Below are positions 4,311-10,869 of a stretch of DNA of 64,000 bases, in pieces. Position numbers and translations under genes: made by a program. Source of the stretch: Candidatus Nitronauta litoralis (GTDB lineage Bacteria; Nitrospinota; Nitrospinia; Nitrospinales; Nitrospinaceae); NCBI GenBank assembly GCA_015698285.1, contig CP048685.1, positions 2,852,001-2,916,000 on the forward strand. The letters are read 5' to 3'. The notes under the pieces were generated by a model. That model made no database searches. It was not told where the DNA came from and worked only from the letters and a program-made list of their open reading frames with translations. The first letter of the stretch is position 1; each line of letters opens with the position of its first letter.

Positions 4311-4961
4311 TCAGGCCCGGCGTCTCAACATTCCCTGAAAGGGCTTTATCAAAATAGCTCCCGCAGCAAACCCGCCAATATGTGCCAGCCAGGCAACCTC
4401 TCCCTCTGCTCCAACTGAAACACTGTTTGCAACCTGCATTAAAATCCAGATTCCCAATAGAATAATTGCGGGGATGCGCACCATGGAAATATAGAATCCG
4501 AGAAAAATAAGGGTGCGAACGCGAACTCCAGGGAACAGGACCAAATAGGCCCCGAGGATACCTGAAATGGCACCGCTGGCACCCACCGCCGGAATAGATG
4601 AAGATGGGTCTGCCACCATATGGCTTATGGCGGCGAGAACTCCACACAGGAAATAGAATAAAACAAAGCCGAATCGGCCGAGGCGATCTTCTATATTGTC
4701 CCCGAATATCCACAGGTAGAGCATGTTTCCAGCCAGATGTGCCGGGCCTCCATGCATGAACATGGAGGTGATTAAAGTCGGATACTGGCTGAACGGATTG
4801 CTCAGGAAATCAGCCGGCACCATGGCATATTGACTGATTGCGGCCGACATGCCCCCAGGAGCCTGTAATTGCATTACAAACCCGGTAATATTGAGGGCAA
4901 TTAATGAAATAGTGAAGATTGGAAACGATCTCCTGGGATTTTCATCATATAGAGGAAGCAT
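4311..4961 (-). CDS. Rhomboid-family intramembrane serine protease
   Basis: 216 residues, six or seven hydrophobic segments. The rhomboid signature is complete: HGGPAHLAGNMLYLWIFGDN in the second helix region, the catalytic-serine motif GASGAISGILGAY, and the catalytic-histidine helix AHIGGFAAGA. It should cleave membrane proteins within or next to the bilayer of the inner membrane. Convergent with the zinc-ribbon gene (15 bp between stops). Substrate cannot be inferred from context. Confidence 0.93.
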   Translation of the reverse strand: MLPLYDENPRRSFPIFTISLIALNITGFVMQLQAPGGMSAAISQYAMVPADFLSNPFSQYPTLITSMFMHGGPAHLAGNMLYLWIFGDNIEDRLGRFGFVLFYFLCGVLAAISHMVADPSSSIPAVGASGAISGILGAYLVLFPGVRVRTLIFLGFYISMVRIPAIILLGIWILMQVANSVSVGAEGEVAWLAHIGGFAAGAILIKPFQGMLRRRA

Positions 4962-5222
4962 AAATTGGGCGTGGCCTGAGTATGTGGTAATATTTTGATT
5001 TAAATGGACATTTTAAATATTTTAACAGTAGTGGACGCCATGGACTGGACTCACTTTACTGATAGACCAGTAGACATTGAGGGCCGTTTCTTGAGAATAT
5101 CTGTCGCATGAAATTTTTACCTCACGTTTTAATAGAAAGCCTATCACCGGTCCAGGAGAAAACTATCCAAAAAGCATCTCACCTCAGGGGACATATTTCT
5201 TCCCAACTTAAGGTTGTGGTAA

Positions 5223-7610
5223 ATGAGTGAAACCGATGACACTTCATTAGCCCGCTCAGAGTCCAGTGCTCCTTCAGTACGTACTCGGCCTGAAGAGGAT
5301 TTCAGCTGGATCATTGCGGCATATTCCCGGCATCGTTTACGTGAATTAACCCAGGAACTGGACAAAGACCTTGGTGAAAACCGTGGGCCCCAGTGCTACC
5401 TGCCCCCTGTGTTACTTGACACAAATCCAGTTCACCATCGTCAAAGTCTGCAGGAACAAATTTTCCCCAATCCCCGTGCGATTAATGAAGATCTTCTTGA
5501 TCTTGGAAAATCGAATTTGCTTCTTGAAGCTCCCGCCGGCATGGGAAAAAGTACTTTCCTGAAAGTTTATCAGGAATCGCGGCTTCAGAGGGGAGAAGCA
5601 GAGGAATACCCACTGACAGTTTATCTGGACCTTGGCCTGCTTCCAAAAGGGTCCGGGTTCAATGAGTTTTATCCGCTTTATTTCAGCCATGTGTCGGAAA
5701 TGATTTTGCGGGAGAAGGAAGAGCAGCCGGACCTGGTTTTAGATGAAGAGATCCTCAAGCAAACCCTGAAGCGGATGGTGCTCACCGGCCAGGTGATGTT
5801 CCTGCTGGATGGCCTGGACCGGATGGCAGCGGATGACCGGTTCCAGTTTTTTTATGACGTTGTGGTCGATGGAGATGCCCTTCATGACAACTTGGCCGTT
5901 ATGGCCATGCGTCCGGTTGGGTTTGGACCCATGGCCACCACGTCTGTGGTTAAACGTGGGCAGGATGCCTGCTTCCGGATGACCTTTCAAAAACTCGATG
6001 AAAAATCGTGCAAAGCCTACCTCGGTGAAATAGGAAACAAACCGCTTATAGACAACATGCGTTTGTTTTCTTCAGAAATTTTCCAGACACCCTATCTGCT
6101 ACGTCTTCTCAGATCGGTAGCCCAGGCCGGGCGACTTGAAGAAGTTAGAAACCAGACCACATTTTTTGAAACCTGGCTTTCTCTTGTCTTGCCTGAGGGA
6201 GAGGATAAAGAAGAGGTGGAACTGAGACACCGGATACTGTCCCGACTGGGCACCATTTCGCTCGAGTTGGCGGAAGCGGATCGATTTCAGCGGTTTGAAG
6301 AGGCCGATACCGGATATGAAATGGATCTTCTTGAAGGTGATCCGTCACTTCTAAATGACGGGACCCTGCTTTGGAATCTGGATCCCATTCTTCGCCAGAC
6401 CCAGCACAAGTGGGAATATCGACACCCTGTTTTCCAGGAGTTTTTCGCCGGGCGCCACCTGGCCCGAAAGCCGGAACGGGATGAATTGATTAAAGCAAGG
6501 GGAAGGGATACTCGCTGGGAAAGTCTGTTGAAATTCAGCATCGGTTCTATTTCTGGCTCCCTTGACACGATTTACGACCTGTTAATTGAAACAGGCGCTC
6601 TGTTTCTCGCAGGTAACGCCCTTCCGGAAGCGCAAAAACTTTCCGAGTCGCGCCGATTAATGGTGGGGCAGTTGCTCAAGTATCAGGACCGCGAGCAGTA
6701 CCCGCAATTTTCGCGCAATCGATTGGTGCAACCCCCTAAAGTGATCAGTGCCTTGGGGCAGGAAAAAACTCGGGAGATGATTTGCGAATTACTCAAAAGA
6801 GAAAACCGGAACACGCGTATCTTGTATGGTGTCCTGGATTTGTTATGCACCCTTCATAAAATAAAGCTTATTGATGTGATCGATTGTCAGGATTTTTCAC
6901 CCGTAAATGCATTGCCGGAGCTCCATGAATTTCTTAAAGAGCGGAGCGACCCGGAAAGTGTAGATCAGAAAGTGATGAAGCGCTGGGGTGAAATGGTCAC
7001 CGTATCGCAGGGGAAATTCATTTACCAGAATGAACGGGATGAAGAAGATCATATTTATTTGAAAGAATTTGCCATCATGAAGTGCCCCGTTACCAATGCC
7101 TTGTGGAAACAGTTCGATCCAGAAGGGGAATTACGACATCCAAAATTTTCCTATGATGATGATCAACCCGTGATTGGAATAAATTACTATGAAGCCACCC
7201 TATTTGCTTTATGGATGGGATTACGGTTGCCGACCGAGAAAGAATGGGAGAAAGCTGCCAGGGGAACAGATGGTCGGGATTACCCCTGGGGTGATGCGTT
7301 GGGATACCAGTCTGGCTTCACCAACACGGCCGATTTTGTTCTGGGCCGGACCAGCGCTGTTGAGTCTTTTGAGGATGGCCTCTCGCCCTACGGCTGCTAT
7401 GACATGGCCGGAAATGTCTGGGAATGGTGTGTCCAATTGTATTCTTCAAAATTCAGCACCCAAAAGGTGGTCCGAGGGGGAGCCTGGATGAATTATATGG
7501 TGCATGCCAAATGCGTGTTCCGGAATTCATTTGATCCCGCAGAGCACCATCCTGGTGTCGGGTTGCGTTGCGTGAGCCCCGATTTAGCTGAAACCGATGA
7601 TGATGAGTAA
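5223..7610 (+). CDS. STAND/NACHT-type NTPase fused to an FGE/SUMF-like domain
   Basis: 795 residues. The Walker A is APAGMGKST (around 103-111) and the Walker B is VMFLLDGLDRM (around 191-201). This is followed by a NACHT-like winged-helix region with HPVFQEFFAGRHLAR near residue 400. From about residue 590 to 785 there is a formylglycine-generating-enzyme (FGE-sulfatase/SUMF1) domain: LPTEKEWEKAARG, YPWGD, YDMAGNVWEW, VVRGGAW and GLRCV. The first FGE catalytic cysteine, expected shortly after RGGAW, is not seen (WMNYM), so the domain is probably a binding module rather than an oxidase. No TM segment. Stand-alone gene between the divergent rhomboid and the response regulator. STAND proteins often sense and signal; an immune or signalling role is inference. 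Confidence 0.85.
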   Translation: MSETDDTSLARSESSAPSVRTRPEEDFSWIIAAYSRHRLRELTQELDKDLGENRGPQCYLPPVLLDTNPVHHRQSLQEQIFPNPRAINEDLLDLGKSNLLLEAPAGMGKSTFLKVYQESRLQRGEAEEYPLTVYLDLGLLPKGSGFNEFYPLYFSHVSEMILREKEEQPDLVLDEEILKQTLKRMVLTGQVMFLLDGLDRMAADDRFQFFYDVVVDGDALHDNLAVMAMRPVGFGPMATTSVVKRGQDACFRMTFQKLDEKSCKAYLGEIGNKPLIDNMRLFSSEIFQTPYLLRLLRSVAQAGRLEEVRNQTTFFETWLSLVLPEGEDKEEVELRHRILSRLGTISLELAEADRFQRFEEADTGYEMDLLEGDPSLLNDGTLLWNLDPILRQTQHKWEYRHPVFQEFFAGRHLARKPERDELIKARGRDTRWESLLKFSIGSISGSLDTIYDLLIETGALFLAGNALPEAQKLSESRRLMVGQLLKYQDREQYPQFSRNRLVQPPKVISALGQEKTREMICELLKRENRNTRILYGVLDLLCTLHKIKLIDVIDCQDFSPVNALPELHEFLKERSDPESVDQKVMKRWGEMVTVSQGKFIYQNERDEEDHIYLKEFAIMKCPVTNALWKQFDPEGELRHPKFSYDDDQPVIGINYYEATLFALWMGLRLPTEKEWEKAARGTDGRDYPWGDALGYQSGFTNTADFVLGRTSAVESFEDGLSPYGCYDMAGNVWEWCVQLYSSKFSTQKVVRGGAWMNYMVHAKCVFRNSFDPAEHHPGVGLRCVSPDLAETDDDE

Positions 7611-7902: not shown

Positions 7903-9249
7903 ATGACGGTTGAGATTAAAACCAAAAAAATCCTTTGTATTGATGATGATGCTGCCCTTTTAAAGGTGGTGCACAGGATATTATCAAAAAATTTCCCACC
8001 GGAAGTTCTGGAAATCCATGAAGCCAATAATGGTGAGCAGGGAATCAAGATGATTCAGGCCCTGCATCCCGATATCGTGCTGTCAGATATCCAAATGCCT
8101 CAAATGGATGGTCTGGAGATTTGTCGGAGGGTCAGACAGCATGGAATTCAGACCGCAATCATTCTGATGTCGGCCTATGATGTTGAAGAGGACAACGCTA
8201 TTAAAGCCAGCAAAGCAGGTGCCGACGCATTTTTATCCAAACCGATTAAAAAAGGGGAATTGTTATTTGCGGTCAATTTTGTGCTCCGGATAGCCAGCCT
8301 GAGTGAAGCAGTAACGACCAAAAACAAGCAATTGGAAAAATCTGTTGAACAACTCAAACAATATCAGCAGAAATTAAATGGTCTGAATGAGGAATTGAAA
8401 TCGGACAAGCGCCGGTTGAATGAAAACCTGAAAGAAGTGGTGACCCTGAACAAGCAGTTGGAATCAAAGAACGGCCAGATCCTGTCCATGAACGAAGAAC
8501 TGGCGGGACGTTTTGAATCCACAGTGAGCCTGATATCCAATATTATCGAATTACATCAGTCAGAACACCGGGGGCATGCCGAGCGGGTTGCTGAAATTTC
8601 CGTGTATATCGCAAAGAAAATAGACCTGCCTGATCAACAGATCCAAAATATCAAAACCTCTGCTCTCATCCATGAACTGGGTATTGTAAGTTTGCCTGAT
8701 GAAAAAAAGATAGAGGAGGCTACGGATGAATTGAGTAACAGGAGTTTCACACACCATCCTCTGGTGGCAGAAATGTTGCTTAAATCATTCCCCGGCTTTG
8801 AGTTGGTTTCAAATATCATCCGCCATTTGCATGAAAATGTGGATGGCTCGGGAATTCCTGACAACCTTTCAGGGGATCGTATTCCGATTGGATCACGGAT
8901 TGTATCGCTTGCGAGTTATTTCGATCATGCCTTGATCTCTGGTGGACAGGATAAATTGGAACAAGCGTTTGCCAAAGTAGAAGACCAAGCCGGTCTCATG
9001 TTCGACGAAAAACTGGTGGGGGTGCTGAGCGACTGGATTGATGAACAGAATCCGGAAAAAATTTCCACCGTAGACTACAACATTTTTGCTTTAAAAGAAG
9101 GGATGGAACTGGCATCGGACATCTATTCCGAGTCGGGGATCAATTTGTTAAGAAAGGGCACGGTGTTAAAAAAGGATATTTTGAGCCGTGTTCTCAAGTT
9201 TCATAATGTGGACCCGATCCTGGGGTCGATCAAGGTCAAGCGAAAGTAG
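7903..9249 (+). CDS. Response regulator with degenerate HD-GYP domain
   Basis: 448 residues. The REC domain spans residues 8-125 (CIDDDAALL; phosphoacceptor Asp in DIVLSDIQMPQMDG; LSKPIKK). A Gln/Lys-rich coiled coil spans about 135-205, followed by an HD-GYP-like domain. The catalytic pair reads HE (ALIHELGIVSLPD) where HD is normal, GIG/GK is altered, and the GYP loop reads GSGIP after HENVD. It may therefore not hydrolyse cyclic di-GMP. It ends 9 bp before motA, suggesting a role in stator or motility control. REC assignment is secure; loss of phosphodiesterase activity is inferred from the substitutions. Confidence 0.88.
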   Translation: MTVEIKTKKILCIDDDAALLKVVHRILSKNFPPEVLEIHEANNGEQGIKMIQALHPDIVLSDIQMPQMDGLEICRRVRQHGIQTAIILMSAYDVEEDNAIKASKAGADAFLSKPIKKGELLFAVNFVLRIASLSEAVTTKNKQLEKSVEQLKQYQQKLNGLNEELKSDKRRLNENLKEVVTLNKQLESKNGQILSMNEELAGRFESTVSLISNIIELHQSEHRGHAERVAEISVYIAKKIDLPDQQIQNIKTSALIHELGIVSLPDEKKIEEATDELSNRSFTHHPLVAEMLLKSFPGFELVSNIIRHLHENVDGSGIPDNLSGDRIPIGSRIVSLASYFDHALISGGQDKLEQAFAKVEDQAGLMFDEKLVGVLSDWIDEQNPEKISTVDYNIFALKEGMELASDIYSESGINLLRKGTVLKKDILSRVLKFHNVDPILGSIKVKRK

Positions 9250-9258
9250 TCAGATAGC

Positions 9259-10047
9259 ATGGATATTACAACTTTAATCGGAATCATACTTGGAATCGGC
9301 CTGGTCCTTTGGTCGATTCTCCTGAACAGCGGCCTGGATTTGTTTATCAATCTACCCTCTGCAGCGGTTGTGTTTGGCGGGACAATTGCCGCCACCGGGA
9401 TCGCCTACCCGATGAATGAATTGTTTCGTGTGGCCGGGTTGTTCATCAAAGTGTTCGTGACCAAAAAAACGGATCTTAACCAGCTGATTGAAAGTATGGT
9501 GATGGTCTGTAACGTGGCGCGTAAAGGTGGTGTATTGGCGATCGAGTCTAAACTGAATGAAATCGACAATGATTTTTTGAAGAAAGGTTTGCAGTTCACT
9601 GTAGATGGAAAAGATGAAGCCACCGTGAGTTCCCTGCTTCGTGGAGAAATCAAACAGATTCAGATGTCTCATAAAGATGGCTGGGAAATCATGAATGAAA
9701 TGGGGAAGTTTGCCCCTGCCTTTGGCATGATTGGAACATTGATCGGTCTGGTACAGATGTTATCTGCTTTGGATGATGTCAGCTCGGTGGGCCCCAAAAT
9801 GGCCGTTGCCCTCATCACTACTTTCTACGGTGCATTGTTAGCTAACCTTATTTTCATTCCGATGACTGTCAAACTGAAGCGCCGAAGTGCTGCTGAAGCA
9901 TTGGAGATGAATCTGGTGCTTGAAGGGATTATATTCATCAGGAAGGGAGTCAACCCACGTTTCATGAAAGAAACGCTGGAAACTTACCTGGAAAATGCGC
10001 TTGGAGTTAAGATCAAGAAAGATGATGATGGCGGCGGCAAAAAGTAA
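9259..10047 (+). CDS. motA: Flagellar motor stator protein MotA (proton/sodium channel)
   Basis: 262 residues with four predicted TM helices (about 5-25, 35-55, 150-172 and 183-205). The large cytoplasmic loop lies between helices 2 and 3, and the conserved MotA/PomA helix-3 motif is FAPAFGMIGTLIGLVQML. With MotB it forms the ion-driven stator that turns the flagellar rotor. Length fits the family. It lies 9 bp after the response regulator and 18 bp before motB, so the three form an operon. Ion specificity cannot be decided by eye. Confidence 0.93.
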   Translation: MDITTLIGIILGIGLVLWSILLNSGLDLFINLPSAAVVFGGTIAATGIAYPMNELFRVAGLFIKVFVTKKTDLNQLIESMVMVCNVARKGGVLAIESKLNEIDNDFLKKGLQFTVDGKDEATVSSLLRGEIKQIQMSHKDGWEIMNEMGKFAPAFGMIGTLIGLVQMLSALDDVSSVGPKMAVALITTFYGALLANLIFIPMTVKLKRRSAAEALEMNLVLEGIIFIRKGVNPRFMKETLETYLENALGVKIKKDDDGGGKK

Positions 10048-10065
10048 TGAGGGAGATTAACGGCC

Positions 10066-10869
10066 ATGGCTGAAGAAGAAAGCCCTCCAGCAGAAGAACC
10101 TGAAGAAGAGGAGCACGAGTGCGAAGAGGGGATACCCGCATGGGTCATGACCTTTGCTGATCTGGTTACCCTGCTCATGGTTTTCTTCATTTTGCTTTTT
10201 GCGATGGGAACCATTGAGCAGGAAAAATGGAAGCAGATTAAAGCCTCCCTTAAATCTGCCCTGGGAACAGACGTAATTCCAGAAACCGGTACCCGTGTGG
10301 GGCTTGATGTCATCAAGGATCCTGATGCAAAATTAGATGAGGATACCATTGCCGCAGTAGACGAGGTGGGTGCAATGGTGGCCAAGGAAGTTGAAGAAAT
10401 CGCTTCCGAGGTTGAGGAGTTTGTCTATAAGAATAAGCTGTCCGGCCAGGTCGAGGTGTCGTCGGATGAACGTGGAGCGGTGATAACCATTTCGGATGTA
10501 GTTCTTTTTCCTCCAGGTCGTTCGCGAATGACTTATGCCGGCAAAAAAACCATTGACCAGGTGTTCGACCTCCTTCAACAGTTCAACTACGATGTGCGGA
10601 TTGAAGGCCACACGGATAACAGCCCGATACATACGGAACAGTTCCCCTCCAACTGGGAACTCTCTGCTTCGCGTGCCGCCGATGTGGCAAGGTTGCTTGT
10701 GGAGAACGGATTTCCTCCTGAAAAACTTTCAGTTGTAGGATTCGCAGAATTTCATCCCAAGGTTCCCAATACATCTGCCAAAAACCGGTCGAAGAACCGG
10801 CGCATTGAAATTGTTTATCAGCGCGGTAGTATCCGAGGTAAAATGGTCGACGTGCTACGTCGCCGTTAG
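10066..10869 (+). CDS. motB: Flagellar motor stator protein MotB (OmpA-like peptidoglycan anchor)
   Basis: 267 residues. A strongly acidic N-terminus precedes a single TM helix carrying the ion-binding aspartate (FADLVTLLMVFFILLF). A plug/linker region follows, then a C-terminal OmpA-family domain (IEGHTDNSPI, WELSASRAADVARLL, NRRIEIVYQRG) that binds peptidoglycan. A GGGAG site precedes the ATG. Directly downstream of motA; together they make the stator. No other flagellar gene is in the window. Confidence 0.93.
   Translation: MAEEESPPAEEPEEEEHECEEGIPAWVMTFADLVTLLMVFFILLFAMGTIEQEKWKQIKASLKSALGTDVIPETGTRVGLDVIKDPDAKLDEDTIAAVDEVGAMVAKEVEEIASEVEEFVYKNKLSGQVEVSSDERGAVITISDVVLFPPGRSRMTYAGKKTIDQVFDLLQQFNYDVRIEGHTDNSPIHTEQFPSNWELSASRAADVARLLVENGFPPEKLSVVGFAEFHPKVPNTSAKNRSKNRRIEIVYQRGSIRGKMVDVLRRR

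Follow-up and report, generated by a model that had tools for sequence, protein, structure and literature searches.

Bacterial proteins resembling the NLR immune receptors of animals are generally regarded as immune receptors that occur sporadically and evolve fast. Among them, the STAND–FGS fusion has been described as widespread, with a bDLD3-STAND-FGS/TIR pair reported in some proteobacteria and Nitrospinae (PMC8195603, eLife 2021). The gene considered here lies in a 64,000-nucleotide stretch of the Candidatus Nitronauta litoralis genome (hereafter the window, whose numbering is used throughout); the genome itself is one contig of 3.92 Mb. It occupies an open reading frame (ORF) at 5223-7610 on the plus strand and encodes a protein of 795 amino acids, a NACHT-type STAND NTPase followed by a C-terminal FGE-sulfatase domain, which is a bacterial relative of the animal NLR immune receptors.

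Each of the closest described systems shares part of this design. Like the STAND NTPase-FGS conflict fusions (PMC8195603), the NACHT–FGE protein joins a central NACHT/STAND NTPase to a C-terminal PF03781 domain; unlike them, it is single-copy and order-wide, and it is free of the EAD, bDLD3 or effector N-termini, the multiple copies and the links to diversity-generating retroelements (DGRs) that are often seen in those fusions. The STAND-FGE/CLec proteins of Thiohalocapsa PB-PSB1, which are diversified by DGRs (PMC10907252), also pair an NTPase with an FGE/C-type-lectin fold, whereas the present gene has neither a DGR nor a template repeat. The anti-phage bNACHT proteins (PMC12169576) share the NACHT module, and some of them (bNACHT02/12) likewise have no discernible effector; in the present protein, however, an FGE-like domain replaces the C-terminal SNaCT or NCH1, and the gene is a fixed core gene. 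The animal receptors NLRC4, NOD2 and NLRP3 show the same order and fold of NACHT, winged-helix and helical domains, but the NACHT–FGE protein lacks their CARD/PYD and LRRs. Finally, SUMF2 (pFGE), the human FGE paralogue, has the FGE fold without formylglycine activity; unlike the NACHT–FGE protein, it stands alone with no fused NTPase.

The STAND–FGE fusion itself is already known (PMC8195603, PMC10907252). For a form that is single-copy, order-wide, effector-less and DGR-free, and whose FGE-like domain is frozen, no description was found in the open-access literature searched, with distribution beyond the phylum partly covered. With a fixed single-copy NLR-like protein whose presumed sensor is its most conserved part across an order, one can ask whether NACHT switches also serve a constant physiology or guard a constant host process. 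The order that carries it belongs to the group in which the main marine nitrite oxidisers are found.

Architecture of the NACHT–FGE protein

The gene, its parts and its conserved neighbours are as follows.

4311 to 4961, minus strand: rhomboid-like protein (named from sequence), the divergent neighbour, adjoining in 32 of the 40 genomes examined
5223 to 7610, plus strand: whole NACHT–FGE gene, NACHT-type STAND NTPase with C-terminal FGE-like domain (ORF call, Pfam, full-length orthologues)
5223 to 5492, plus strand: N-terminal segment, residues 1-90, with a disordered start, one helix (27-50) and a conserved LLDxNPxxxRQS motif (orthologue alignment, Pfam, structure model)
5493 to 5927, plus strand: NTPase core, residues 91-235, with Walker A GMGKST at 106-111 and Walker B FLLDGLD at 193-199 (Pfam, alignment, structure match)
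5928 to 6497, plus strand: helical and winged-helix region, residues 236-425, with the motif RHPVFQEFF (NLRC4 profile match at 185-418, structure match)
6498 to 6986, plus strand: all-helical arm, residues 426-588, linking NTPase module and FGE-like domain (secondary structure of the AlphaFold model, pLDDT mostly >90)
6987 to 7592, plus strand: FGE-like (FGE-sulfatase, C-type-lectin fold) domain, residues 589-790 (Pfam, alignment, domain model)
7903 to 10869, plus strand: response regulator with an HD-GYP-like domain, MotA-like and MotB-like proteins, conserved downstream (named from sequence)

The position of the start codon (MSE...) is common to most orthologues. A 40-amino-acid ORF at 5108-5230, which overlaps the gene start by 8 bases, was rejected as a gene, being absent from the relatives inspected.

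An initial sequence-only reading had proposed a STAND/NACHT NTPase fused to an FGE-like domain at this position, and both domains were recovered by profile search, with further support from the family profile and structure model. In this sequence alone, the Pfam NACHT match (residues 100-207, E 1.5e-3) falls under the Pfam cut-off. Since the domain is matched in 39 of 39 aligned orthologues (best E 2.5e-8) and about 50 genomes of the order hold a NACHT match above the cut-off, the weak score is a peculiarity of this sequence. The family profile matches NLRC4 over residues 185-418 (E 2.5e-6), and the top solved folds for the full-length structure model (mean pLDDT 79.7, with the FGE part poor) are NLRC4, NOD2 and NLRP3 (Foldseek, E down to 3e-12, probability 1.00). 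Whole-chain TM values against the NLRs reach only about 0.3, since NLRs contain nothing comparable to the FGE part and the domains are placed differently; both profile and structure model show the NACHT, helical and winged-helix parts in NLR-like order. The Walker motifs first read from the letters are genuine and kept throughout the orthologues: Walker A (G106, G108, K109), the Walker B aspartates of its DxxD (D196, D199) and the winged-helix HP..QE motif (401-406), which together mark a NACHT-clade STAND NTPase, show little or no variation across 39-46 orthologues. Motifs of the RHPVFQEFF type are typical of NACHT proteins. The sole other NACHT-like match in the genome (G000:C1:1186435, a frame of 1322 amino acids) is also under Pfam's cut-off.

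Turning to the C-terminal domain, Pfam places FGE-sulfatase (PF03781) on residues 590-784 with an E-value of 6.5e-42. Because the full-length model is poor in this part, the domain was modelled separately with paralogues before the fold search; its residues 110-136 are still of low confidence. The isolated model matches CalU17, SUMF2 and FGE structures as well as Treponema variable protein 1. An active formylglycine-generating enzyme has two copper-binding cysteines (human C336 and C341). With the human FGE active-site strand, confirmed in PDB entries, as the anchor of the alignment, both catalytic positions are replaced: the first is asparagine (N757) in 44 of 44 sequences, as had been suspected, the second cysteine is missing as well, and no orthologue has any cysteine within residues 751-763. 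C764 aligns with the third, non-catalytic cysteine of the human enzyme. The alignment supports the view that the domain has lost formylglycine chemistry and that recognition, as originally suggested, is a better inference than catalysis.

Distribution, neighbourhood and selection

The distribution sample comprised 64 genomes of the order and 13 of other orders in the class, searched with the NTPase part as query. A match was found in 57 of the 64, always as one gene per genome. The seven genomes without a match are all less than 90% complete, and one of them has a contig-edge fragment by profile; all 28 high-quality genomes (completeness 90% or more, contamination 5% or less) hold a single copy. 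No family member occurs in the 13 genomes of other orders. One of these, G003, shows generic NACHT similarity only, with six NACHT matches over the cut-off that belong to a different family; most genomes of the NACHT–FGE order have a single such match. The nearest named relatives come from Nitrospina sp. and Nitrospinaceae MAGs, and one scan of genome contigs, with partial coverage beyond the phylum, matched just the two nearest relatives. Pairwise distances follow those of RibBA and CinA (r 0.90-0.94), which fits the expectation for vertical descent. A mobile origin was rejected: plasmid sequences gave no match to the NTPase part and viral contigs no relative of the gene, the phage matches being weak hits to the FGE fold only. 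Within its order the NACHT–FGE gene is a core gene, present in single copy and passed on vertically. In distribution, it behaves as would a housekeeping gene shared by all relatives, which the sequence-only reading had named as evidence against itself.

The sequence-only reading also took the gene to stand alone behind a long leader region, and neither description holds. The order CinA, rhomboid (divergent), NACHT–FGE, HD-GYP-like regulator, MotA, MotB, RibD is conserved, with the downstream neighbourhood kept in 38 of 40 genomes and the upstream in 32 of 40. The 261-bp gap to the rhomboid gene is conserved in neither length nor sequence, and in a same-genus relative the rhomboid match starts 91 bp upstream. 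Promoter- and terminator-like matches near the gene are no more frequent than in shuffled sequence. Downstream, a 292-bp gap suggests that the HD-GYP–MotAB genes probably form a separate transcription unit.

Within the protein, conservation peaks in the FGE domain, where mean pairwise identity is 0.70-0.71 (41-46 genomes). The corresponding value for residues 1-588 is 0.48, and those for neighbouring proteins are 0.58 (CinA), 0.57 (RibD) and 0.77-0.78 (MotA, RibBA). Because dS is high or saturated even between same-genus relatives, dN was compared by domain in place of dN/dS; against the same-genus relative it is 0.043 in the last 100 residues, the lowest in the protein, and 0.139 in the helical arm. 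These comparisons show the gene to be under strong purifying selection, and a conserved FGE domain with low C-terminal dN is the opposite of a diversifying sensor. The proposal of a conflict system with a variable sensor fares poorly on this evidence, as the gene is present in one copy at one syntenic site and has no DGR or effector. Across 39 orthologues, the only Pfam hit to a domain of the effector or EAD kind was one to bDLD1 (E 0.09), which is at chance level. An effector, EAD or TIR is absent from the protein, and none is evident as a partner in the conserved neighbourhood (CinA, rhomboid, HD-GYP, MotAB, rib); neither the effector component nor the several copies of STAND-FGS conflict systems are present.

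Possible functions

We consider it slightly better than an even bet that the protein works as an NTP-driven molecular switch of the NLR type, encoded by a core gene that has become fixed in the order, and that its FGE-like domain recognises an unvarying ligand or partner in the service of lineage-specific physiology. The domain, its formylglycine chemistry gone, would bind a constant ligand or protein partner. The helical arm would pass the binding signal on to the NACHT module, and this module may then exchange nucleotide and change conformation or oligomerise. As the protein has no built-in effector, its output would have to pass through a partner, which could dock on the N-terminal helix and LLDxNPxxxRQS segment or on an assembled ring. 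The role would be one in lineage-specific cell physiology and not that of an arms-race immune receptor. This reading draws on the single copy, synteny, RibBA- and CinA-like distances, FGE identity and low dN, together with the non-mobile character of the gene, the lack of a DGR, the invariant NTPase motifs, the NLR folds and retention without MotA. Against it, bacterial NACHT proteins have been studied mainly as anti-phage factors, and the effector-less bNACHT02/12 still defend (PMC12169576); moreover, vertical fixation and purifying selection alone are compatible with defence against an invariant signal. A more specific and more tentative proposal, which we hold at somewhat less than even confidence, is that an NLR-type switch was taken from a conflict system for order-wide core physiology, with the frozen, dead FGE-like domain, possibly bearing a three-cysteine site, acting as the sensor of a constant ligand.

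The main rival to such a switch is a fixed immune sensor, a possible but rather unlikely alternative. Here the protein would be an innate receptor of the pattern-recognition or guard type, with the FGE-like domain binding an invariant phage pattern or monitoring a conserved host protein and an effector recruited in trans. The NACHT fold and tripartite-like layout are in keeping with this role, and a sensing role against invaders has been put forward for STAND-FGS fusions (PMC8195603). In addition, sensing by bNACHT25 is indirect and runs through the host protein DnaJ (PMC12169576), conservation would be expected of a guard sensor, and it has been suggested that phages prey on Nitrospinae (PMC8026999). 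Several features weigh against an immune receptor: the gene is fixed across the order in single copy and at one site, effector, EAD and TIR are missing, plasmids and viral contigs do not carry it, and it has no PADLOC match. Taken together, the sequence data argue against an arms-race receptor and accommodate a physiological switch and a fixed immune sensor alike.

It is improbable that the FGE-like domain is still an enzyme, with a non-canonical site built from C725, C736, C764 or other residues and regulated by the NACHT module. In its favour, C725, C736, C764 and C783 (window 7395-7571) are invariant in all family sequences covering them, and among seven FGE paralogues of the same genome a cysteine occurs at 736 in only one and at 725 or 764 in none. 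A family-specific metal or redox site from the first three is possible on this pattern, and the superfamily includes other chemistries (EgtB, OvsA, PvdO). No orthologue, however, has a cysteine at either canonical copper-ligand position, and the closest solved folds include SUMF2, a paralogue known to be inactive as an FGE. The iron ligands of EgtB are carried by its DinB-type part, and Pfam shows no such part in the orthologues.

More doubtful still is a role within a flagellar or c-di-GMP module together with the adjoining HD-GYP-like regulator and MotAB. Such a module would account for the gene order conserved across the order, but the 292-bp gap precedes the regulator, and the NACHT–FGE gene is kept in three genomes without a MotA match (G029, G030 and G049, 95-98% complete); MotA is dispensable for its retention. 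A DGR-type or otherwise hypervariable antigen receptor, as the Thiohalocapsa proteins (PMC10907252) and the fold match to Treponema variable protein 1 might suggest, has almost no probability left and is already contradicted by a nearly invariant C-terminal region and by a genome in which no reverse transcriptase scores over threshold and the gene's 3' end has no further copy to act as a template repeat.

The genome is rich in FGE-type loci beyond this gene. It holds 31 FGE-sulfatase (PF03781) loci above Pfam's cut-off, four of them clustered at G000:C1:2483559-2490593, and any such locus was found in only 4 of 14 control genomes. Six of the seven same-genome paralogues compared above likewise lack the catalytic cysteines in the aligned strand; catalytic cysteine loss is common in the FGE superfamily. 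One paralogue, L005 (G000:C1:239865-240527, a 393-amino-acid frame), carries a pair of cysteines, five residues apart, just downstream of GGSW. This pair lies near the position of the catalytic pair of true FGE, and the locus would be the best lead among the paralogues examined for an active enzyme.
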